This document shows positions 19,984 through 41,810 of a stretch of 41,810 nt of DNA, piece after piece (positions within the stretch are counted from its first letter, which is position 1; each line of letters starts with the position of its first letter). The notes under the pieces are model-generated. The model made no database searches. It was not told the DNA's origin and worked only from the letters and a program-made list of their open reading frames with translations. Made by a program: the position numbers and the translations under genes. Source of the DNA: Ignavibacteriaceae bacterium (GTDB lineage: Bacteria > Bacteroidota > Ignavibacteria > Ignavibacteriales > Ignavibacteriaceae); NCBI GenBank assembly GCA_014860115.1, contig JACZKK010000093.1, forward strand, positions 1 through 41,810, given 5' to 3'.

Positions 19984-21942
19984 TCACTCTACTCTTAGGC
20001 TAATCCCGCCATAAACAGAAAAACCAGCGGTTCCGTACCCGTAAATTTCCTCATATTGCTTATCCAGAAGATTTTCGATTCTGCCCTGCAATCTTAAAAA
20101 TGAAAACAGATCATAGTATGCTGCAAGATTAATAAGGAAATAATCCGGCATTACAATTCTTGGAGGAAATGTTGCAAAATCAAGGTCATCCCGTTTACCA
20201 ACATAAATAATATCTATATTGATATTGGCAATATTGTTCCAGGTATAACTCACATAAATACCTGCTTTGTTCTCCGGTCTTCGAAACAGTTTTTGATTGT
20301 AATTTGGTGTGTTTTCGCTTTTATCTCTTGTATTTAAATAAGTGTAATTGGCTTTGATAAGAAGTCCGTCCATAAAATTGGCACTAGCAAATACTTCAAC
20401 ACCATTTGTTTCGGCCTTATTAATGTTTATGGTTTTATAACTTGTATCTGAACCAAACATATCACTGAATTTATTATAAAAATAATTAACTCCTATCGAA
20501 AATTTTGCATTCCAAAAATATTGTTCTACACCGACATCCCATCCGAAACTTTTTTCGGGATTTAAATCAGGATTGCCATAATTAGGATCATTAAGATTAA
20601 AGAGTGAAGGTGCTTTAAATCCCGTTCCAATAGTTGTTTTTATTTTTGTTCTTGTTGGCCAGAAGATATATGCAGGTGCTAGCCGGTAAGTAAATGCTGA
20701 GCCGAATTGATTGTAATAATCATACCTTATTCCAATTGTTCCAAAAAAGTAATTACCAACTTTAAATTGATCCTGGGTAAAAAGTCCAATGTTATTATAA
20801 TTTTTTAATGGGATTTTGCTCGAATCAGAGGGAAAATAAACAGGGAAGCTGTAATATTCTGATGTGGTTTCTTCATATTCAAATTCAGTTCCGGCAGTAA
20901 TGAGATTATCCTCAAAGAAATAAAAATCATTCTGCCAATCTGCTTTGTATTTTTTGCCATCATAGTGACTCCAAGAGTATGTACTACTGGCAGATGAAGT
21001 GTCATATGAGTAATTCCTTATATTTCTCAATACATACGCTCCAAATTTCTGATTCCATTTTTTATCTAACAAGTTTAGATTTCCTTGTGCTCGAATGAAA
21101 TATTCTTCCTGATTGAAAGAATAAGTAGGATCATCCCAATATTCTGGTAGACCAAAAGATTGATCAAGTTGAGTTGAGGAGTAGTTATAACGTATTACCA
21201 AATCAGCATCAAATGATTCAGACAAATTATATCCCAAAATCGTATTGAAATTATCTAACTGATATCCATCTTTTTCGATGTTTCCATATTTTGTTGAAGC
21301 AGCAGAATAGCCATCACTCTTTGTTCTGCTAAATGAAGCGGAATAGTTGAATTTATCTATAGCACCAAGCGAAGTGATAGTGCCCTTATAGGTATTATAG
21401 CTGCCACCTTCAAGTCCAATATTAAAAGAAGGTTTACCTTGTCCTTTTAATGTGATAATATTTACTACCCCTGTAAGTGCATCTGAACCGTAGAGTGTGC
21501 TTTGAGGACCTCTTAATATTTCAACACGACTAGTATTATCAAGTGGTAAAGAAAAAAAGTTATAAAAGTTGGATGGATCATTCGGCATATTTACTTCTAC
21601 GCCATCAATAATTACAAGTGATTGAGATGGGCTTCCTCCTCGAATATAAATATTGGATACCGAAGCTTTGCCACCCTGCTGTGTAAAGCTGATTCCATAT
21701 TCATTTTTGATTGCATCGAAAGTATTGAAGGAATTCTTATTGACAATTTCTGCCGAGTCAATTACGGAAATGGAATTAGCAAGTTCTAGTGTGTTTGAGG
21801 GAGTTCGCGTCGCCGTAATAACAACATCATTTAACTTGTAATATCCTGCTGAATCTGTTTTTTGAATGATATCCTGCTGAGGGAAAAACATTACAGGAAA
21901 AAGCAGGACTGCAAAAAAGAAAATGTATTTGGTTTTTACCAT
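19984..21942 (-). CDS. btuB: TonB-dependent receptor, BtuB-like
   Basis: This 652-residue outer-membrane receptor has a signal peptide of about 22 residues. A TonB box-like DVVITATRTPSNTLEL (from about residue 38) follows, then a plug domain with VDGVEVNMPNDP and VEILRGPQSTLYGSDALTGV, and a 22-strand barrel ending in the FSVYGGISLRVE strand. At about 650 residues it has the size of BtuB rather than of the longer SusC-type receptors. The cobalamin riboswitch in its leader is the strongest evidence that it imports vitamin B12 or related corrinoids using energy from TonB. GGAG lies eight bases before the start codon and is involved in the riboswitch expression platform. Confidence 0.9.
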   Translation of the reverse strand: MVKTKYIFFFAVLLFPVMFFPQQDIIQKTDSAGYYKLNDVVITATRTPSNTLELANSISVIDSAEIVNKNSFNTFDAIKNEYGISFTQQGGKASVSNIYIRGGSPSQSLVIIDGVEVNMPNDPSNFYNFFSLPLDNTSRVEILRGPQSTLYGSDALTGVVNIITLKGQGKPSFNIGLEGGSYNTYKGTITSLGAIDKFNYSASFSRTKSDGYSAASTKYGNIEKDGYQLDNFNTILGYNLSESFDADLVIRYNYSSTQLDQSFGLPEYWDDPTYSFNQEEYFIRAQGNLNLLDKKWNQKFGAYVLRNIRNYSYDTSSASSTYSWSHYDGKKYKADWQNDFYFFEDNLITAGTEFEYEETTSEYYSFPVYFPSDSSKIPLKNYNNIGLFTQDQFKVGNYFFGTIGIRYDYYNQFGSAFTYRLAPAYIFWPTRTKIKTTIGTGFKAPSLFNLNDPNYGNPDLNPEKSFGWDVGVEQYFWNAKFSIGVNYFYNKFSDMFGSDTSYKTININKAETNGVEVFASANFMDGLLIKANYTYLNTRDKSENTPNYNQKLFRRPENKAGIYVSYTWNNIANINIDIIYVGKRDDLDFATFPPRIVMPDYFLINLAAYYDLFSFLRLQGRIENLLDKQYEEIYGYGTAGFSVYGGISLRVE

Positions 21943-22059
21943 AGAAGTTACTCCGCTAAAAAATGACAGGTAACTTCGCGGGTCAAAAGTTGAAAGTAAA
22001 CGATTGATAAAAAGATGATCGTTAAACTAACCTCTTCTCGCGAAGGTTGATTAAGTTAC
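21943..22059 (-). promoter_or_regulatory. Riboswitch expression platform (translation-control switch)
   Basis: On the transcript, GAAGTTAC (21977 to 21970) is an exact complement of GTAACTTC (21951 to 21944), which lies between the GGAG ribosome site and the ATG; this helix would block initiation. The same strand, as CGCGAAG (21980 to 21974), is also an exact complement of CTTCGCG (22045 to 22039) in the hairpin loop proposed as L13. AAGTTAC can further pair with GTAACTT (22059 to 22053) right after the B12 box. These pairings exclude each other, as required for a switch. Confidence 0.75.
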
Positions 22060-22084
22060 ACTTACGGCAGGTCTCCTGGCTTTT

Positions 22085-22156
22085 GTAATGTATAATTTAG
22101 AATTAAGAATGTAGAATTAACTCATTATAAATTATACATTCTGCATTATACATTAC
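22085..22156. repeat. AT-rich palindromic repeat in place of the riboswitch peripheral domain
   Basis: GTAATGTATAAT (22085-22096) and ATTATACATTAC (22145-22156) are perfect 12-bp inverted arms; an inner pair GAATGTA/TACATTC extends the hairpin after a bulge. It starts 3 bp from the B12 box and ends within 4 bp of the conserved ACTGTGA. AT-rich palindromes of this kind look like dispersed intergenic repeats, but I could not count copies. Confidence 0.7.
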
Positions 22157-22194
22157 TTCACAGTTGCGCGACAGCGCCGGAGTTGATTGAGTCT

Positions 22195-22274
22195 TGTCAT
22201 TGTGAGTCATACTGAGCCTGTCGGAGTATGATGAAGCAATCTCAAAGGATTACTTCGCTTCGCTCGTAATGACA
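22195..22274. repeat. REP-like palindromic element inserted in riboswitch loop
   Basis: This 80-bp element is bounded by TGTCATT (22195-22201) and AATGACA (22268-22274); the 12-bp ends match at 10 positions. Inside are two hairpins: TCATACT/AGTATGA (22207-22231) and GAAGCAATC/GATTACTTC, the latter followed by CGCTTCGCTCG. From memory, very similar sequences recur between genes in this lineage and others. Here the element lies between the two strands of a short conserved riboswitch stem, on a single continuous leader RNA. Confidence 0.7.
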
Positions 22275-22340
22275 GATTAAATCGCACCGGACTTCCCTAT
22301 AATTTCCCTTACTCAAAATTTGAGTGGGAACACCGTAAAC

Positions 22341-22651
22341 ATTTGAAAGAACTGCTTAAACTTAAATTGAGGATATCAATATTCAAAATCTGAAGTACTA
22401 ATTATTTTCCTGAAAATTTTTTGCATGTTTTTAATGTGAGAATTGAATAAGTTTACATTGCAATTATTATTATCAAAGGTTAGGGGATTGACAGACTTAA
22501 AGTCTGATATTTTTTTTCGCACTAAAAATGCGTTCCTAACAGAATCTTTCTATAATTTACTTGCCTGGTTCTGCTTTTCCGGAAGACTACAACTTTTTCA
22601 GAAATTTATTTCTACACCAAATAATTCAACTCATTTAAATCCGAGGTTCAT
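22341..22651. other. Intergenic region with a cloverleaf-like palindrome
   Basis: I see no convincing gene in these 311 bp; a 70-codon frame here has no ribosome site and no family match. The divergent promoters of the riboswitch and the protease must lie here. At 22479-22540 the outer arms GTTAGG and CCTAAC enclose two hairpins, CAGACTT/AAGTCTG (22492-22506) and CGCA/TGCG (22518-22532). The first is followed by eight T residues (22510-22517) and so resembles a plus-strand terminator or attenuator ahead of the protease. Confidence 0.5.
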
Positions 22652-24632: not shown

Positions 24633-26243
24633 TCAAAATCTATAAGTGAGATTAGCGAGAAATCTTCCAGAAGTTCTGGTATCTTCAAAAATGCCTTCAT
24701 AAGTGAAATTCAGAAGAACTGGTTTTAGAATGTAAGTATTCAGATTTATTGAAACCGAATTCTGTTTTAGCTCGTCAATACCCGTTCTGAATTTATAGCT
24801 AGTAAACCTGTATCCAAGCATAATATCAAATCCATAAACTATCGGTCTGTTTAAACTTGCACTCCAGATATCACCTTCTGTATAACTACTGCTTAATTTG
24901 TTGAAAGAAACTGTTGCGCTTGTTTCAATTCCGGGTATTTGTGAATAAGTGATGTAGCCGCCATAATTATTTGAAGGCTTTAAATCACCTCTTCGATAGC
25001 GATAGCCGTAATCACCGCCAAAGTATAAATTTCTTATTGGCTTTAAAGTTAATCTTGTTCTGAATCCTTGTCTGGTTTCATTTTCAATTATACTATCAAG
25101 AGTTGTTTTAAATGTTTCATAATAGATTACATTTTTTCTGGCATCATAAGACAGCATTATAGAAAACAAATCACTCGGACGGATATTGATTGATGTATAA
25201 AGACTTGTCAAAGAAAAATCAGTTTTGTTTTCACCCATTTCTTTCTTGAACAGATCAACTTCTGATGATAGGAAGATCCTTGTGTTTTGAATTGCTGAAT
25301 TGGAGTGCTGGAAGTAAAGAAATCTTCTATCAGTATTGAAATCATTTGTCTGTTCAAAGTAACCCAGAGTGTTTTGCATATCACCATTTGCAAACAAATC
25401 TGCTCTGTTCACGTAAGCTCCATATTCAAACAGCTTGGAATTTAAACCCATATTGTTGAAATCAGGTCTTGATCCAACAGCGGCACCGAACGACCATTCG
25501 TTAATTCCGGTTTCGAACTGCAATCCATCTATCGAACCGATATTAGAAATTTTATTATTGATATGTCTTCCAAGCCAGACAAGTGTTCGTTGGTTGAAAT
25601 CATATCTAATTGCAAGATCATATACTCTTACAGCTTCGGAAAGATTTGAAGAAATTCTGTCCCAGTCATCCGCACGATATGCAAAGCTTATGTATTGTGA
25701 ATAAGAAAAACCTGAGCTTCCAATTCGTCCTGCATTTAATTGGAATGTATATCTCCAGCGCTGATAATCATAGCTCGAAATATTGTTTGTAAAATTAGAA
25801 TATGATTGAACAGACAATCTTCCTGAAAGAGTTGGAATGGGTTCCAATGAAGTTTTTGTAACTACCTCATCAGTTACGATAGTCGGAATAACAACAGGCG
25901 CAATAGTAGTTATTTGAGTGGTATCCTCTTCAGCCTCACCATCATCTATGGAAACAAAAGCATACAGCACGGTATTTAGTTCTAATTTTTTATTACTAAT
26001 AGAAATTCCTGCACAGGAAGTTGAAGATTTGTGATCCACTTTTATAGTCGGTAAAAAATTATTTTTATCTTTCAGAAAAAGCGTATCGCCTGTTTCAATT
26101 CCATCTGTGTTAGTAAACTTAACATAAATATTTTGTGAGGAAATATAGCTAATCTGACCGGAGACGATGTTCTTATTCCCTGTTTGAGCAGAAATTTGAA
26201 CAGCAGTAAACAAAATAAGTATGTAAAAAATTTTACTAGTCAT
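24633..26243 (-). CDS. Outer-membrane beta-barrel protein of the multiheme cytochrome operon
   Basis: This protein of 536 residues has a signal peptide (residues 1-20, MTSKIFYI to ISAQ). A small N-terminal domain (about 25-105, SGQISYISSQNIYVKFTNT) and a Thr/Glu-rich linker precede a long run of alternating aromatic strands from about 135 to the C-terminal FLANLTYRF, a typical outer-membrane barrel end. I start it at 26243, where the signal peptide begins and 2 bp after the 40-heme cytochrome stop; a longer frame runs into that gene. In porin-cytochrome conduits such as MtrCAB, a barrel carries a multiheme protein through the outer membrane. Its place as last gene after two such cytochromes suggests that role, although no sequence similarity to MtrB is evident. 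Confidence 0.82.
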   Translation of the reverse strand: MTSKIFYILILFTAVQISAQTGNKNIVSGQISYISSQNIYVKFTNTDGIETGDTLFLKDKNNFLPTIKVDHKSSTSCAGISISNKKLELNTVLYAFVSIDDGEAEEDTTQITTIAPVVIPTIVTDEVVTKTSLEPIPTLSGRLSVQSYSNFTNNISSYDYQRWRYTFQLNAGRIGSSGFSYSQYISFAYRADDWDRISSNLSEAVRVYDLAIRYDFNQRTLVWLGRHINNKISNIGSIDGLQFETGINEWSFGAAVGSRPDFNNMGLNSKLFEYGAYVNRADLFANGDMQNTLGYFEQTNDFNTDRRFLYFQHSNSAIQNTRIFLSSEVDLFKKEMGENKTDFSLTSLYTSINIRPSDLFSIMLSYDARKNVIYYETFKTTLDSIIENETRQGFRTRLTLKPIRNLYFGGDYGYRYRRGDLKPSNNYGGYITYSQIPGIETSATVSFNKLSSSYTEGDIWSASLNRPIVYGFDIMLGYRFTSYKFRTGIDELKQNSVSINLNTYILKPVLLNFTYEGIFEDTRTSGRFLANLTYRF

Positions 26244-26245
26244 AA

Positions 26246-29236
26246 TTAATTTATTTGTTTTAACCCTTTTACTTTGGCCCCAATACTCCAATTAAAAGTA
26301 TCATGACAATCCCAGCAATTAGTTGGATCTCCCGGGTCATGCTCTTCCAGGAAATCATCCATGTGGCAGCTTAGACATTGCGGCTGATAGTTTGGTTCCG
26401 AGTGACACTGATTGCAATTGACATTATTATGATGACCAGAAATCGGGTAGAATGAATGATTGAAGTTAGCAGGAGTCCAACCATTCATAGTGTGGCAAGT
26501 TAAACAGTCAAAAGAAAAGTTAAGTACTGAATGCGGCGGATCGCTTGTTCCATTATATTCACTCTGATGGCACCCAATGCAAGTGTTTGGTGTATTGTTA
26601 TAATTACCGTCATGGCAATCAGCACAATTTGTAATATTGGCATGTGCACCGAGCAATTCAAAAAATTGATTGTGAATCGGAAATGTTGCCGGCTGCCAAT
26701 CAGGATTAGTTGTATGGCATTGAGCACAATCAGTCGGTAAAGTTAATGCTGTGTGGCTTGGATTTGTGCTTTGCTGGTAATCTGCAGTATGGCAATCGTA
26801 ACAAATAGTTGTCGTTCCAGTAAAACCTGATTCATGACAATCAGAACAGTTCACACTTATGTGCGCTCCGGTTAACGGGAAGTTAGTAAGGTTGTGGTTG
26901 AAGGTAACCTGGTTCCAGGCAACTGAATTATGACACATCTCGCAATTTGTAGGATATCCCTGTGCAACATGTTCCGGCGCAATATTATAATCATCCTGAT
27001 GGCAGGAGATGCAATCGGAATTTAAACCTGTGATTACTCCCTGATGACAATTTGAACATTGAATATTTAAGTGAGCGCCTAACAATTCGAATCCTGCTAG
27101 CGTATGATTGAACGTTGAAGGTATCCACGCAGTTGAATTATGGCATTGTTCACATTCATGAGGAATTCCAGCAGCAATATGATTTGGATTCTGAGCATTG
27201 TTGTATGGATCAGTATGACAGTCAAAGCATAAGTTTGATGTAGTTGTATAATTTCCATTGTGACAGGAAACGCAGTCGTTTGCAATTTCCAGATGTCTTC
27301 CAAGTAATTCGAAATATTGATTGTGAATAGGAAACAAAGCAGGTTTCCAACCAGGCTCTGTTGTATGGCAGGTCGTGCATTCTGTAGATAATCCTAATTG
27401 CGTATGATTTGGATTTGTTGAATTGTTGTAGTTTGTCTGATGACAGGCTATACATTCTGTTGGTGTCCCACTATATCCGCTTTGATGGCACTGCTGACAA
27501 TCCAGAGTAGTATGAGCACCTGTTAATGGGAAAATTGAATTACCATGGTTGAAGGCATTACCTTTACTTCCATCCGGATGACAAGAAAGACAAGCATTAC
27601 TTTCATATATATATCCCTGAACACTCTGGTGTTTATCATCCATCTCCAGTTGATTGTGTTCGTGGCAGCTAATGCAGGTAAATACTGAATAATTATTTGG
27701 GACTTGATGGCAATCCAGGCACTGATTCCACTCACCAGCATGCTCTCCGGTATAAATAGGAAAATACAATCCATCATGGTCAAAGGTTGCGGGAGTCCAA
27801 CCATTAGTAGTATGACAATCCTCACAAGTTGTTGGGAACGCTGCAGCTATATGATTGGGATTTTGTGAATTATTATAAGCATCAGTATGACAATCATAAC
27901 AAAGATTTGGAGTAGAAGTATAATTACCATTGTGACAGCTATTGCAATCATTTGCATTTTCCAGATGCTTTCCAAGTAATTCATAATATTGGTTATGAAC
28001 AGGGAATAGCGCTGGCTGCCAATCTGGATTTGTTGTATGACAGCTAATACAATCTGTTGATAATCCAAGCTGCGTATGATTTGGATTAGTCGAATTGTTA
28101 AAATGAATCTGATGACAGGCGACACATTCAGTTGGTGTTCCTTGATAACCACTATTGTGGCAATCCTGACAATTTGTAGTAACGTGAGCTCCAGTTAATG
28201 GGAAAATGGAATTAGCATGATTAAATGCATTACCTTTTTCGCCTGTGGGATGACAGGTTAAACAAGCTCCACTTTCATAAATGTATCCTTGAACACCCTG
28301 ATGTTCATCATCCATATCCTGCTGATTATGCTCGTGACAGCTTATACATGTAAAAACTGAATAATTGCCTGGTACTTCATGACAATCTGCACAGGCATTC
28401 CATTCACCAGCGTGCTTACCTGTATAAATAGGGAAGTAAGGTCCATCGTGATCGAAAGTTGCTGGTGACCAGCCGTTTATCGTATGACATTGGATACAAT
28501 CTGTTGGAAAGCCGATTGAAATATGATTGGGATTTGTAGTTGCATTATAGGTATCAAGATGACAGCTTACACACTCAGGTGAAAGACCTGTAAAGCTTCC
28601 TCCTTGTTCATGACAAGCAAAACAATTTGAAATTTGGTGACCACCAACCAAAGGGAAAAAATCGTGATCTACATTTAGTGCTGTCCACTCACTTGCAGTT
28701 ATCGAATGACAATTCTCACAATCTTTAGAATCATTTGGATTATGTGCGATACTGAAATCGCTCCCATGACAAGCAAAGCAATCTGTGTTCAGTGGTTCAA
28801 AATAGAGGTCAACATATCTTGAATGACACTGTTGACAATCTGCAGTCAAATGATTTCCAAGAAGAGGGAATCTTCCTTTTTGGTGAAGTCCATTTATATC
28901 TTCCACCATCCAGGATTTTGATGTATGGCATTTTGAACAATCTTTACCAACCGTTCCCTGGTGAAGATCAGTATGACAGGAAATACAGTCAGAATTAATT
29001 TTTGAAAATTCAAGATTTGTGTGACAGCTTCTACAATCTGCAGCCTTGTGCTGACCAGCCAATTCAAATTTTGTTATGCTGTGATCAAACTGAACTTTTT
29101 TAACATCAATTTTCCAGCTTGTCGGTTCATGGCAGAGTTCGCAATCGTAATCGAAATCATCACCATGTGGTGATTGTGGAAATGCAGATACTACTAGTAG
29201 CAGGGCCAAAACTATTTTTTGTGGCAAGTTGCGCAT
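26246..29236 (-). CDS. Forty-heme c-type cytochrome
   Basis: This 996-residue protein has a signal peptide of about 20 residues and, by my count, 40 CXXCH heme-attachment motifs, about one per 25 residues. Motifs repeat in a pattern of paired CXXCH sites joined by stretches such as WTPATFDHD and FPLTGAH, whose His residues are the likely distal heme ligands. Residues 235-458 and 459-682 are a gap-free tandem duplication (224 residues, nine hemes each), and a partial third copy lies near 825-920. It resembles cytochrome c7/c3-type multiheme families rather than OmcA/MtrC. Its start overlaps the 20-heme gene by 25 bp, indicating translational coupling. It should be periplasmic or surface-exposed and conduct electrons along the heme chain. 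Confidence 0.95.
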   Translation of the reverse strand: MRNLPQKIVLALLLVVSAFPQSPHGDDFDYDCELCHEPTSWKIDVKKVQFDHSITKFELAGQHKAADCRSCHTNLEFSKINSDCISCHTDLHQGTVGKDCSKCHTSKSWMVEDINGLHQKGRFPLLGNHLTADCQQCHSRYVDLYFEPLNTDCFACHGSDFSIAHNPNDSKDCENCHSITASEWTALNVDHDFFPLVGGHQISNCFACHEQGGSFTGLSPECVSCHLDTYNATTNPNHISIGFPTDCIQCHTINGWSPATFDHDGPYFPIYTGKHAGEWNACADCHEVPGNYSVFTCISCHEHNQQDMDDEHQGVQGYIYESGACLTCHPTGEKGNAFNHANSIFPLTGAHVTTNCQDCHNSGYQGTPTECVACHQIHFNNSTNPNHTQLGLSTDCISCHTTNPDWQPALFPVHNQYYELLGKHLENANDCNSCHNGNYTSTPNLCYDCHTDAYNNSQNPNHIAAAFPTTCEDCHTTNGWTPATFDHDGLYFPIYTGEHAGEWNQCLDCHQVPNNYSVFTCISCHEHNQLEMDDKHQSVQGYIYESNACLSCHPDGSKGNAFNHGNSIFPLTGAHTTLDCQQCHQSGYSGTPTECIACHQTNYNNSTNPNHTQLGLSTECTTCHTTEPGWKPALFPIHNQYFELLGRHLEIANDCVSCHNGNYTTTSNLCFDCHTDPYNNAQNPNHIAAGIPHECEQCHNSTAWIPSTFNHTLAGFELLGAHLNIQCSNCHQGVITGLNSDCISCHQDDYNIAPEHVAQGYPTNCEMCHNSVAWNQVTFNHNLTNFPLTGAHISVNCSDCHESGFTGTTTICYDCHTADYQQSTNPSHTALTLPTDCAQCHTTNPDWQPATFPIHNQFFELLGAHANITNCADCHDGNYNNTPNTCIGCHQSEYNGTSDPPHSVLNFSFDCLTCHTMNGWTPANFNHSFYPISGHHNNVNCNQCHSEPNYQPQCLSCHMDDFLEEHDPGDPTNCWDCHDTFNWSIGAKVKGLKQIN
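27191..28534 (-). repeat. Two tandem 672-bp units inside the 40-heme cytochrome gene
   Basis: Units at 27863-28534 and 27191-27862 encode residues 235-458 and 459-682. Aligned by hand they have the same length and 175 of 224 identical residues (78%). All nine CXXCH motifs and all FDH/GAH histidines are kept, while synonymous positions differ often, so the duplication is old and conserved by selection and not a recent slippage. Confidence 0.85.
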
Positions 29237-30792
29237 TTAGAGTCTTCTAATTTGAATTTGATGAAAGTAGTCCCATTATTTTCTACTTTAGGATGACATT
29301 TGGAGCAATCAATATTTTTATGAGCCCCATCTAAATTAAACTCTGTTTTGCTATGATCAAATTTTTCAGGTTTCCAATTTTCAAAACTATGACAACGGCT
29401 GCAATCTGAAATTCCTTCAACTTTGAACTGCCCAAAATGAATATCATTATGACATCCTTCACATTCTTTTTTGACTGAACTAAAAATAATTGATGAAGTT
29501 TCATTTTCTACTTTTCGATGACAGGATCCGCAATTAATTGAACTATGCTTGCCCAAAAGAGGGAATTCAGTCTTCTTATGGTCAAATGATATAGTAATCC
29601 AATTATCTGTTTGGTGACAAACTTTGCAGTCATTATTTGGTAAAAATTCAGCTTTAAGCTCATTTTCGTGAATATTTTTATGGCAGTTAATACATTCAAT
29701 TCCAATGCCTTTAAAATGCCAGTTGTTTTGTTGATAGTGACAACTTTCGCAGGGTGTAGCTAAATGAGCGCCGGTAAGCTGGAATTGCGATTTATTATGC
29801 AGATCTAATGTGTATGACGAAGGTCTGAATCCATTCTCGGAATGACAGTCAGAGCAATTCTGAGTGACATTGTTGACGACAAATTGTGCTTTGTGATAAT
29901 CTGTATGGCAGTCGGTGCAAAGAGCAAATTTCATTTTGTAACCTGATGGTGCCTTATGACAATTGTTGCAGCCCACAGATTTATGTTTACCTATCAATGG
30001 AAATTTTGTTCTGTTGTGGTCAAATGCTGAGGAATTAATTTGTTTGAAACTGGCTGTGACATGGCAGCTTGAACAGTTCTGTCCAAAACTTCCTTTATGG
30101 ATATCCTGATGACAGGAATTACAATTCTGGAATGGAATGTTTTTAAATGCCTGATACTTTTTGCCATTCTTGTTTTCGATTTTATGACATCCGAGACATT
30201 CAACTTTTAAATGGGAACCAGTTAATTTAAATGCAGCAGTTGAGTGATCAAATTTTGCTGCGGGTATAAAGGCATCATTATTATGACAATTATTACAATT
30301 ATCACCTAAAGTTTTTTGATGATAGTCTTCGTGGCAGGGAGTACAGTTACTGCTCAGACCAAGATAAGTATTTTTCCTTTTTTTAAGTTTAGCGTCAGAG
30401 ATGAAATCTGATTTGTGACATTCCTTGCACTCAGCAGTTTTGTGTTTACCTGTTAAGCTGAATCCCGCTTTATCATGATTAAATGATTCAGGATTAAAAT
30501 TCACGATCCTGAAATTTCTTCCATGATGTTCATTATGACAGATTGAACAGTTTTTATCTTTTACCTCTGTGCTTGAATGATAACCAGTACCAGCGCTCAT
30601 TCTGGTTTTTATCTCACTATGACAATCCAGGCATTTTGAATTACTTACCTGTTCCCCAAGTTCGTGGCATTTAGTACAATTACTGATTCCTTCCAGGTCG
30701 GCATGAAAGGTTGTGAGATCACCCGGAGAAATTTGAGCATATAAGTAGAAATAAGAACCGAAGAGGAAAACGTATGTAAAAACTTTTAAGAT
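29212..30792 (-). CDS. Twenty-heme c-type cytochrome with non-ATG start
   Basis: The frame is open from a stop at 30802-30804 to 29212. The first ATG is at 30600, but the 64 codons before it encode a clear signal peptide (LKVFTYVFLFGSYFYLYAQ) and two more heme motifs, CTKCH and CLDCH, so the gene starts earlier. Only ATT (30798), ATA (30795) and ATC (30792) are available; AAGGA lies six bases before the ATC, which I take as the start. The product has 526 residues and 20 CXXCH motifs, with FDHxxTxFxLxGxH spacers that supply distal histidines. The upstream oxidoreductase gene ends at 30811 and the 40-heme gene overlaps its end, placing it mid-operon as a periplasmic electron carrier. Confidence 0.88.
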   Translation of the reverse strand: MLKVFTYVFLFGSYFYLYAQISPGDLTTFHADLEGISNCTKCHELGEQVSNSKCLDCHSEIKTRMSAGTGYHSSTEVKDKNCSICHNEHHGRNFRIVNFNPESFNHDKAGFSLTGKHKTAECKECHKSDFISDAKLKKRKNTYLGLSSNCTPCHEDYHQKTLGDNCNNCHNNDAFIPAAKFDHSTAAFKLTGSHLKVECLGCHKIENKNGKKYQAFKNIPFQNCNSCHQDIHKGSFGQNCSSCHVTASFKQINSSAFDHNRTKFPLIGKHKSVGCNNCHKAPSGYKMKFALCTDCHTDYHKAQFVVNNVTQNCSDCHSENGFRPSSYTLDLHNKSQFQLTGAHLATPCESCHYQQNNWHFKGIGIECINCHKNIHENELKAEFLPNNDCKVCHQTDNWITISFDHKKTEFPLLGKHSSINCGSCHRKVENETSSIIFSSVKKECEGCHNDIHFGQFKVEGISDCSRCHSFENWKPEKFDHSKTEFNLDGAHKNIDCSKCHPKVENNGTTFIKFKLEDSKCATCHKK

Positions 30793-30810
30793 TATAATTC
30801 CTTATAATTA

Positions 30811-32142
30811 TTAATGTTTTAAGATTGCTTCGCCAAATTTCTTTGTGATTTTAATCCCCACTTCTTCTAAAAATTTAGTCGGCAGAATACCACCTGCAAA
30901 TATGTAAACCAGATCATTTTCGACCACAACAGGATCAACTTTATCAGAAACACGCAGAAGTACACTGTTATCAAGGATTTCAATCACTTCTGAATTTAGA
31001 ATAATTTTTACCTTACCAATCTTCGAATATTTATTGATGCGCTCAAGGTTCTTGGGTTTTAACCTCGAGAATGAATCACTTCTATAGGAAATTGTGACAA
31101 AATTATTTTCATCAGCGAGCAGAAGAGCACTCTCAATCGCTGAATCACCACCGCCGACCACTAATACTTTTTGGTTATGAATCAGCTCAGGTTCAAGCAG
31201 CCGGTAAGCCACTTTTTCTTTTTCTTCACCCGGAACATCAAGTTTCCTGGGAGAACCTCTTCTTCCAATTGAAAGAAGTACAGATTTTGCTGTATAATGT
31301 CCTTTGCTTGTCTTCACTATAAATATGCTTTGCTGCTTTTCGATAGTTTCAACTTTTTCTTGTTCATTGATAGTGATACTATTCTTAGACAAGACTTCAT
31401 TCCACAATTTGAGCAATTCAGATTTGGAAGTCTCCGAGAGTTTAATTTTTCCATAGAGCGGAAGATCCATTGGAGAAGTCATAACAACTTTTGCTCTTGG
31501 GAAATTGGAAACTGTCCCGCCAAGAGTATCCTGCTCAAGAGTTACGAATTTCAATTTTCGTTTGGTTGCTTCAAGCGTAGCAGAAATTCCAGCAGGTCCC
31601 GCACCAATAATTACAACGTCATAATGAGCATTTCCTCTTGCACCAATTTTTGATGCAAGATAGCTCATCGCTTGTTTACCTTGTTCGACAGCATTTTTAA
31701 TTAAGCCCATTCCTCCTAATTCACCGGCGATAAAAATTCCCGGAATTGTAGTTTCGAATTCCTCACTTATATGCGGAAGCTCAACTCCTCGTTTTTCTGT
31801 TCCTATACAAAGTGATATAGCTTGGACAGGGCAGGCGTGAAAGCACGCGCCATGTCCGACACATCTTGAAGCATTAATTGTTGTTGCTTGTCCATTTATA
31901 ATTCCTAAAATATCGTGTTCAGGACAGGCAGCAACACAGGCTGCACTTCCTATACAAATATCGGGATCAATGACAGGATGTAGTGAAACAGGCTCGTTAA
32001 AACCTAACTCTTTTGCTTTAGCAATTTTTCGTTTTGTACTCTGGGAATGCTTTTTGTTTCTTTTGATGTAGTAATAGAAGAGAAGAGCGATGAAAGCAAT
32101 TACAATTAAATATGCTGCTATGTTTTCTAAGATTACTTCCAT
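30811..32142 (-). CDS. Membrane-anchored ferredoxin-FAD/NAD(P)H oxidoreductase
   Basis: This 443-residue protein begins with a membrane helix (about 9-27) followed by a Lys/Arg-rich stretch, placing the rest in the cytoplasm. A two-cluster ferredoxin domain comes next: CIGSAACVAACPE (Cys63, 69, 73) and CVGHGACFHACPV (Cys94, 100, 104). In both, the second cysteine of the normal CxxCxxCxxxCP is replaced, by Ser66 and His97. Then a thioredoxin-reductase-like flavoprotein part follows: FAD motif VVIIGAGPAGISATLEA (from about 176) and a NAD(P)H motif VLVVGGGDSAIESALLLA. A TrxR C-terminal-like segment PGIFIAGELGGMGLIKNA precedes the FAD domain. It is the likely entry point of electrons for the cytochromes encoded next. 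Confidence 0.9.
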   Translation of the reverse strand: MEVILENIAAYLIVIAFIALLFYYYIKRNKKHSQSTKRKIAKAKELGFNEPVSLHPVIDPDICIGSAACVAACPEHDILGIINGQATTINASRCVGHGACFHACPVQAISLCIGTEKRGVELPHISEEFETTIPGIFIAGELGGMGLIKNAVEQGKQAMSYLASKIGARGNAHYDVVIIGAGPAGISATLEATKRKLKFVTLEQDTLGGTVSNFPRAKVVMTSPMDLPLYGKIKLSETSKSELLKLWNEVLSKNSITINEQEKVETIEKQQSIFIVKTSKGHYTAKSVLLSIGRRGSPRKLDVPGEEKEKVAYRLLEPELIHNQKVLVVGGGDSAIESALLLADENNFVTISYRSDSFSRLKPKNLERINKYSKIGKVKIILNSEVIEILDNSVLLRVSDKVDPVVVENDLVYIFAGGILPTKFLEEVGIKITKKFGEAILKH

Positions 32143-32173
32143 CGCTTAATTGTTATTATAAGACTGACCAAAA

Positions 32174-32677
32174 TTACTTAATTCTTAATACAACTCCAGT
32201 TGCTGCATCGATTCGTATTTCCCATTCCTGTCCGCTGCTTAAAATGAAAAATCTGTATTCCCATCTGTTGTCGCTTTCATCTTTTTCAAATTTCCATTCG
32301 CGGATTTCGCCAGGTTTTGCGTTTAAAGCGACAGTTTTTGCATCGGAATAATCAATTAAGTTCATTCCTGGCTGAACTTCATACTCAAACGAAGGTGAAG
32401 CGCCTTTTATCTCAACCATCGTACCATCATCAATGCGGTATTTTACTTTTAATTCTCCGCCTGAGGATGCAGTCATATAAACCTCCCACACTTTTATTCC
32501 ATTATGTGTGATCATTTCAGTCTTTGTTACAGTTCCCGAATTGATCAGTTTAGCTTTTTGAACCGCCTGGTTTTCAGTGATTGACGAACTGTTGGAATTG
32601 TTAACATCCTCAGAACAGGCAGCGTTGAGCATAACACTAAGAATTATGCTCATCACGAAAAAAGATCTCTTAAACAT
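32174..32677 (-). CDS. PepSY-domain lipoprotein
   Basis: This 167-residue lipoprotein has a lipobox ending LNAAC, so Cys21 is lipidated. Two PepSY-like repeats follow (about 34-95 and 105-167), each with an Ala-rich helix (ENQAVQKAKLI) and then strands EVYMTASSGGELKVKYRID and EWEIRIDAATGVVLRI. PepSY domains often accompany flavin- or heme-based electron-transfer proteins or inhibit peptidases. The next gene, the FAD/iron-sulfur oxidoreductase, begins 31 bp downstream, so this looks like the first gene of the cytochrome operon. The function within the operon is inferred only. Confidence 0.82.
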   Translation of the reverse strand: MFKRSFFVMSIILSVMLNAACSEDVNNSNSSSITENQAVQKAKLINSGTVTKTEMITHNGIKVWEVYMTASSGGELKVKYRIDDGTMVEIKGASPSFEYEVQPGMNLIDYSDAKTVALNAKPGEIREWKFEKDESDNRWEYRFFILSSGQEWEIRIDAATGVVLRIK

Positions 32678-41644: not shown

Positions 41645-41810
41645 TTAGTTCTTAATAAAATATGGCTCGATGTGAACTAGTACATCACTTATGTTGGAAT
41701 ATTCTTTCATCAATTCATCTTTTACTTTGTGAGCTATTTCGTGTCCTTTATGAACAGGAAGATTAGCATCAACGAGAACGTGAATATCAACAAAATAATC
41801 GAATCCCATT
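41645..41810 (-). CDS. Cation diffusion facilitator family transporter, C-terminal part (partial)
   Basis: The minus-strand frame is open from the window edge to a stop at 41645-41647, giving about 54 residues. The sequence DIHVLVDANLPVHKGHEIAH followed by KVKDELMKEYSNISDVLVHIEP is the cytoplasmic C-terminal ferredoxin-like domain of CDF transporters, which export Zn, Fe, Mn or similar ions by proton exchange. The His residues here belong to the regulatory metal site. Only 1 bp separates its stop from the Crp/Fnr start codon, so the two genes are translationally linked. Confidence 0.88.
   Translation of the reverse strand, partial: MGFDYFVDIHVLVDANLPVHKGHEIAHKVKDELMKEYSNISDVLVHIEPYFIKN

Follow-up and report, generated by a model that had tools for sequence, protein, structure and literature searches.

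A putative PCC3-type electron conduit of Ignavibacteria and its conserved NAD(P)H/FAD/iron-sulfur flavoprotein

The stretch of Ignavibacteriaceae DNA analysed here (41,810 nucleotides, hereafter the window) carries a gene set whose membership in the PCC3-type porin-cytochrome conduits, in a host of the Ignavibacteria/Bacteroidota, is well supported by sequence comparisons. It is probable, in our view, that this conduit is fed by an NAD(P)H flavoprotein through a di-haem b protein of the inner membrane, with electrons flowing outward. The earlier note on this DNA had proposed a distinct electron conduit supplied by an NAD(P)H/FAD/FeS protein. The type of system is supported by the present analysis, but the system is not distinct, since it belongs to the published PCC3.

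Five genes follow one another on the minus strand. They encode a PepSY lipoprotein (32174-32677; Pfam PepSY, lipobox LNAAC), a 443-residue FAD/NAD(P)H/iron-sulfur protein (30811-32142; Pfam Pyr_redox_3 and 4Fe-4S), two multihaem cytochromes (MHCs) with Pfam Cytochrome_C7/c3 matches, called A (29212-30792; the periplasmic-type PCC3 MHC) and B (26246-29236; the variable second MHC), and an outer-membrane beta-barrel (24633-26243, with an ATG start), recognised from an AlphaFold2 model and from homology to PCC3 porins. The coordinates confirm the spacing given in the earlier note, with gaps of 31 bp (PepSY/flavoprotein), 18 bp (flavoprotein/cytochrome A), -25 bp (A/B) and 2 bp (B/barrel); its figure of about 60 CXXCH motifs in the two cytochromes also agrees with the count, which is exactly 20 in A and 40 in B. 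A terminator-like hairpin (CCCTCTCA...TTGAGAGGG TTTTCTTT), read by eye on the minus strand at about 32805-32773 and not listed there by the automatic scan, sets the PepSY-led unit apart from the upstream gene; by terminating that gene, it would place the beginning of the unit at the PepSY gene. Among 20 loci, the PepSY gene clearly precedes that of the flavoprotein only in the window's genus (G002), with a weak partial match in G003. The PepSY lipoprotein was therefore rejected as a core part: it is a genus-level addition ahead of the flavoprotein gene. Thus, of the five-gene unit first proposed, the flavoprotein, the two cytochromes and the barrel are conserved together and the lipoprotein lies outside the conserved set. 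Elsewhere in the window, a cobalamin riboswitch (Rfam RF00174, 58.8 bits; 22049-22352, minus strand) is found upstream of a gene for a TonB-dependent receptor (19984-21942).

Of the 59 genomes searched, 28, among them that of the window, have an orthologue of the flavoprotein with 60-85% identity; the 29th match in this search is a partial paralogue (41%). In 18 of the 20 loci read at length, the flavoprotein gene is followed, in the same order and on the same strand, by those of a 20-haem cytochrome, of one or more variable cytochromes and of the barrel, so that the genes are indeed syntenic in relatives. In these 18 loci, 20 haems are counted in the first cytochrome, read as 5+15 in one locus with a broken frame. 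Elsewhere in the family and the order, the genes found ahead of the flavoprotein are dapF-like, ABM-like, or encode a membrane protein of about 290 residues and a TPR protein of about 205 residues. The core gene set is also conserved across classes, in a rearranged order.

The membrane protein, normally encoded just upstream of the flavoprotein, has five hydrophobic segments, two WX3HX13H motifs and an SGXXG motif. In the published text on PCC3, two WX3HX13H plus SGXXG are the signature of the inner-membrane protein, which has about 300 residues and five transmembrane helices and is argued to bind two b haems (PMC5566968). It is because the membrane protein has this signature that the locus is assigned to the PCC3 type. 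One orthologue (locus L053) reads W91x3H95x13H109, W260x3H264x13H278 and S131G132xxG135, and the residues invariant across 12 divergent members include H95, H109, H261, H264 and H278. In 65 membrane proteins from public-genome loci, both WX3HX13H motifs are exactly kept in 57 and SGXXG in 64. The protein has no Pfam match, and thus no match to FRD. In the window's own genome, an orthologue (60%) is encoded at C47:72193-73062, directly followed by the TPR gene (C47:73070-73693), whose product weakly resembles TPR proteins of cytochrome maturation. Over 141 bases (41670-41810), the end of the window overlaps exactly with the end of this contig, being identical to the start of its reverse complement. 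In a sibling genome (G002), the two parts lie joined in this manner on a single contig, where a block of some 14 kb separates the TPR gene from the PepSY/flavoprotein genes. The membrane protein and TPR genes thus sit about 17-18 kb upstream of the flavoprotein gene, on the same strand and beyond the window's end, and the operon is split in the window's genus by an inserted block. The suspicion, voiced in the earlier note, that the membrane step may need another protein was well founded: a PCC3 di-haem b-type candidate lies about 17 kb upstream. A distinct new conduit devoid of a membrane electron carrier was rejected on this ground.

Co-occurrence within the class was studied by searching one set of 294 genomes with a profile for each protein separately. 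With E-value limits (1e-25 or lower for the membrane protein, 1e-100 or lower for the flavoprotein) set after the hit lists were known, so as to separate full orthologues from matches that are partial or paralogous, the membrane protein is found in 73 genomes, the flavoprotein in 74, both in 72 and neither in 219. The two proteins therefore occur together in 72 of the 75 class genomes having at least one of them (Fisher p = 3e-65 over the 294 genomes, a value that makes no correction for shared descent). One contig carries both in 67 of these 72 genomes, and they lie within 12 kb of each other in 66. The single genome with the membrane protein only (G017) has a remnant with stops. At this locus (L090:8017-9151), the stop-interrupted membrane-protein remnant is immediately followed by a C-terminal remnant of the barrel, and the flavoprotein and cytochromes are gone, as if the middle of the operon had been naturally deleted. 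As for the two genomes with the flavoprotein only, G333 is 71% complete and G414 keeps a fragment. When 198 genomes of the phylum were drawn, some of them already among the 294, both proteins were found in 18 and the same single remnant recurred; this count, too, makes no correction for shared descent. As judged from these gene contents, the flavoprotein is a near-obligate partner of PCC3 in the class. It should be noted that two loci, L034 (G026) and L035 (G009), carry the membrane protein, the TPR protein and the flavoprotein with neither cytochromes nor barrel adjacent, which counts against the preferred reading.

When public genomes at large were scanned with the flavoprotein alignment, at least 547 relatives came up, also outside the phylum. 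Among the 80 best are Bacteroidota, Gallionella, Thiobacillus, Thiodiazotropha, Alphaproteobacteria, Deltaproteobacteria, Nitrospirae, Nitrospinales, Gemmatimonadota, Acidobacteria, Zixibacteria and Myxococcales. The PCC3 membrane protein is encoded in 66 of the 77 open-frame loci from these 80, mostly within 300 bp; since the loci were found through the flavoprotein, this count shows its neighbours and not how frequently PCC3 lacks it. Several of the 11 loci without the membrane protein are short contigs. The usual proteobacterial layout is porin, extracellular MHC, periplasmic MHC and membrane protein, with the flavoprotein gene adjoining. There, this gene is usually divergently transcribed and does not belong to the operon, which also counts against the preferred reading. 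Haem numbers in these proteobacterial loci (21/24 plus 10-75) agree with those given for Gallionellaceae PCC3 in the published text (PMC10734462).

The sequence of the flavoprotein suggests how it could serve such a conduit. An N-terminal membrane helix (residues ~8-22) is followed by nine K/R within 21 residues, and by the positive-inside rule the remainder is placed in the cytoplasm. Two iron-sulfur motifs come next, C63xxSxxC69xxxC73P and C94xxHxxC100xxxC104P. Most members have CxxSxxCxxxCP as the first motif, and the distant Bacteroidota classes have CxxCxxCxxxCP; the second motif reads CxxHxxCxxxCP and contains an invariant His97. The protein has seven cysteines, all within or adjoining the Fe-S region, and the Fe-S ligands are conserved. 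The flavin part has the fold of the YpdA, thioredoxin reductase (TrxR) and TrxR-type ferredoxin-NADP reductase family, with structure matches at Z 18-23 (YpdA, 23). Two arginines, R354 and R360, are invariant, as in NADPH-type TrxR. The flavoprotein differs from this family by the lack of redox-active cysteines, by the N-terminal membrane helix and ferredoxin domain, and by an apparent permutation. Indeed, most structure matches end about 45-60 residues short of the ends of the matched chains, and a PGIFIAGELGG... segment resembling the missing end precedes the GAGPAG motif in 155 of 155 open frames; searched alone, this segment weakly matches the C-terminal FAD motif of TrxR and lipoamide dehydrogenase (E 0.1-1). 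These features are suggestive of a circularly permuted TrxR-like fold, where the C-terminal FAD motif would have moved ahead of GxGxxG. Against the YpdA model TIGR04018, the flavoprotein scores 162 bits, below the cut-off of 339.9. A role as a thiol reductase is disfavoured, as the flavin part contains no cysteine and CXXC is absent, leaving no thiol chemistry of the classic CXXC kind. Several class genomes encode proteins of 830-855 residues (for instance L091:7489-10005 in G048) that join a paralogue of the flavoprotein domain to a NapH/NosR-like membrane ferredoxin domain; they may form a further NAD(P)H-linked electron system of the membrane.

The barrel has no Pfam family match. In the AlphaFold2 model, calculated from a 22-row alignment, a small N-terminal beta domain comes first, and 22 strands (counted by hand from the DSSP line) follow from residue 138 on; the mean pLDDT is 84 and confidence is high over most of the strands. 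A profile comparison with 14 proteobacterial PCC3 porins aligned the whole barrel (hhalign probability 97.5, E 7e-12), and controls with reversed and column-shuffled profiles stayed under 1%. Only generic barrels (MOMP, usher, Occ, AlgE), with low TM-scores, came out of the fold search against the PDB, which thus points to no specific relative; the best 50 matches listed include no MtrB structure, which is not evidence of absence. The proteobacterial PCC3 porin holds a TPR-like segment, instead of which the Bacteroidota operon has the separate TPR gene. In Bacteroidia, a gene for a lipoprotein-like product of about 270 residues with no Pfam match (L113:17138-17926 and equivalents) is often found 3' of the barrel.

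The motif counts of the two cytochromes are far above those expected from composition shuffles (means 0.23 and 0.55, maxima 2 and 4, for 20 and 40 observed), and correspond to 26.3 and 24.9 residues per haem, respectively. In the 20-haem protein, the first four haems are spaced by 15/16, 25-32 and 39-44 residues. This signature is found in 84 of 93 MHCs with 18, 20, 21, 23, 24 or 27 haems, versus 3 of 92 other MHCs, and these first three spacings are common to proteins from Bacteroidota to Gallionella, including the 21/24-haem proteobacterial ones. The haem number of the first cytochrome moves in threes, from 20 to 23 and from 21 to 24 to 27, apparently by insertion of a three-haem unit. That of the second ranges from 10 to 75 in relatives, and from 19 to 58 among the loci read at length. 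An internal repeat of 224 residues in the 40-haem protein is consistent with growth by duplication. These haem numbers fit a ruler-like periplasmic wire for the first cytochrome and an unconstrained, presumably outer one for the second. No ATG, GTG or TTG is found ahead of the signal peptide of cytochrome A, which likely starts at an ATC (or ATA) at 30792 behind AAGGA; a canonical start is also absent at this gene in 6 of 85 relatives. An AUU start, conserved and behind a strong Shine-Dalgarno sequence, was considered for the 20-haem gene and is not claimed, because in several relatives the Shine-Dalgarno-like sequence lies within the flavoprotein's own codons.

In the published texts, PCC3 comprises a porin, two MHCs and a membrane protein (PMC5566968; PMC8788666; PMC10734462; PMC12442390), and the present loci share with it the porin, the long periplasmic-type MHC, the variable second MHC and the membrane protein of about 290 residues (PMC5566968; PMC10734462). 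The periplasmic-type MHC has 20/23 haems here and 21/24/27 there. He et al. (2017; PMC5566968) describe a periplasmic MHC of about 21 haems and an extracellular one with a median of 34; the second MHC here has 40, and 10-75 in relatives. Gene clustering is termed "largely conserved" in that work, which is not absolute; the four PCC3 genes are clustered in most relatives and the window's genus has the membrane protein split off. As compared with PCC3 as published, the hosts are Ignavibacteria/Bacteroidota instead of Proteobacteria, the porin is smaller (22 strands and ~540 residues, versus ~750 with an internal TPR-like segment), the TPR gene is separate, and the membrane protein is displaced by about 17 kb in the window's genus. 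Above all, a conserved NAD(P)H/FAD/FeS partner is present here and absent from the components listed in those papers. The passages on PCC3 consulted in open-access papers make no mention of such a partner. Relative to these passages the partner is new, and its priority is not certain.

MtrCAB and MtoAB likewise combine a barrel and multihaem cytochromes to cross the outer membrane. The present gene set differs by the lack of CymA, and an MtrB-type conduit was rejected, as the whole genome contains no match to the MtrB/PioB family (PF11854). Cytochrome A, with its 20 haems, scores 33.7 bits against the decahaem MtrA/DmsE-type model TIGR03508 (cut-off 192.2). At the inner membrane, a likeness can be drawn to NADPH oxidases and ferric reductases (NOX, FRE), whose membrane protein is likewise of the di-haem b kind, has HX13H pairs and is fed, as we infer for PCC3, from cytoplasmic NAD(P)H and FAD. 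In contrast to NOX and FRE, there are two separate proteins, extra Fe-S clusters, a flavin fold of TrxR type and not of FNR type, no FRD Pfam match, and a multihaem wire to which electrons would be passed. No fusion of the membrane protein to the flavoprotein occurs among the loci examined, which counts against the preferred reading.

The following mechanism can be proposed. At the inner membrane, the membrane-anchored, cytoplasm-facing NAD(P)H:FAD:[Fe-S] oxidoreductase would pair, presumably as a complex, with the five-helix di-haem b protein. Electrons would go from NAD(P)H to FAD, then to the two putative Fe-S clusters, and cross the membrane by way of the two b haems. The 20-haem periplasmic cytochrome would receive them and conduct them across the 22-strand barrel toward the long variable cytochrome, which may lie outside, and finally to an extracellular acceptor. 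The inner end would thus be a split input resembling that of an NADPH oxidase. By analogy with NOX and FRE, electrons that leave NAD(P)H at the negative face of the membrane would be driven outward by the redox span and the membrane potential alike, both of which would oppose inward flow to NAD(P)+. We are not aware that the function of a PCC3 has been probed by experiment, and the published texts treat it as untested. A broader generalisation, that PCC3 is a split NADPH-oxidase-like machine of general design in many phyla, discharging NAD(P)H outside without the quinone pool, is tentative, and we would sooner doubt than adopt it; it is contrary to the prevailing reading, that of Fe(II) oxidation.

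In that published proposal, electrons flow inward and meet a quinone at the inner membrane (PMC5566968); the flavoprotein would then be the acceptor side or an accessory. Electrons from an extracellular donor would pass through the cytochromes and the di-haem b protein into the quinone pool, and the flavoprotein might drain or poise the b haems. This is the published model in Fe(II) oxidisers (PMC5566968), many loci among the best 80 come from lithotrophs such as Gallionella and Thiobacillus, the di-haem b protein is akin to quinone-reactive cytochromes b, and the membrane component of one copy is reported to have risen with iron-oxidising activity (PMC12442390). However, PCC3 genes are described as down-regulated on Fe(II) in Sideroxydans ES-1 (PMC8788666). 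From thermodynamic reasoning, it is uphill to reduce NAD(P)+ with electrons that come from Fe(II) and cross the membrane to its negative side, and an optional accessory need not be near-obligate, as the flavoprotein is. Moreover, many Bacteroidota carriers of PCC3 are, to our knowledge, not known lithotrophs. On balance, we consider inward or quinone-linked operation unlikely.

The flavoprotein could instead act in assembly or protection of the conduit, for instance by reducing b haems or Fe-S sites during maturation, and not as a steady supply. The weak similarity of the companion TPR protein to cytochrome-maturation proteins and the proximity of the flavin domain to the YpdA disulfide reductase family speak for such a role, but it is made improbable by the flavin domain having no cysteine for classic CXXC thiol chemistry, and by the conservation of both Fe-S motifs and the membrane helix, as expected for a relay to a membrane partner. 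Finally, that the genes are mere neighbours, with cytochromes storing electrons or binding metal and an unrelated porin, is hardly credible, since order and co-occurrence hold across classes and phyla and the barrel is homologous to PCC3 porins.

PCC3 are among the largest predicted extracellular electron conduits, widespread and little studied. In the published texts they have four components, and their inner and outer ends are assumed to meet a quinone and mostly Fe(II), respectively. The present analysis extends them to Ignavibacteria and other Bacteroidota, including the isolates Emticicia aquatica, Yeosuana marina and Arenibacter sp., and the displaced di-haem b protein offers an answer to the membrane step missing from the five-gene set. 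A near-obligate NAD(P)H/FAD/Fe-S partner across phyla would give PCC3 a concrete electron source, and predicts that electrons flow outward.
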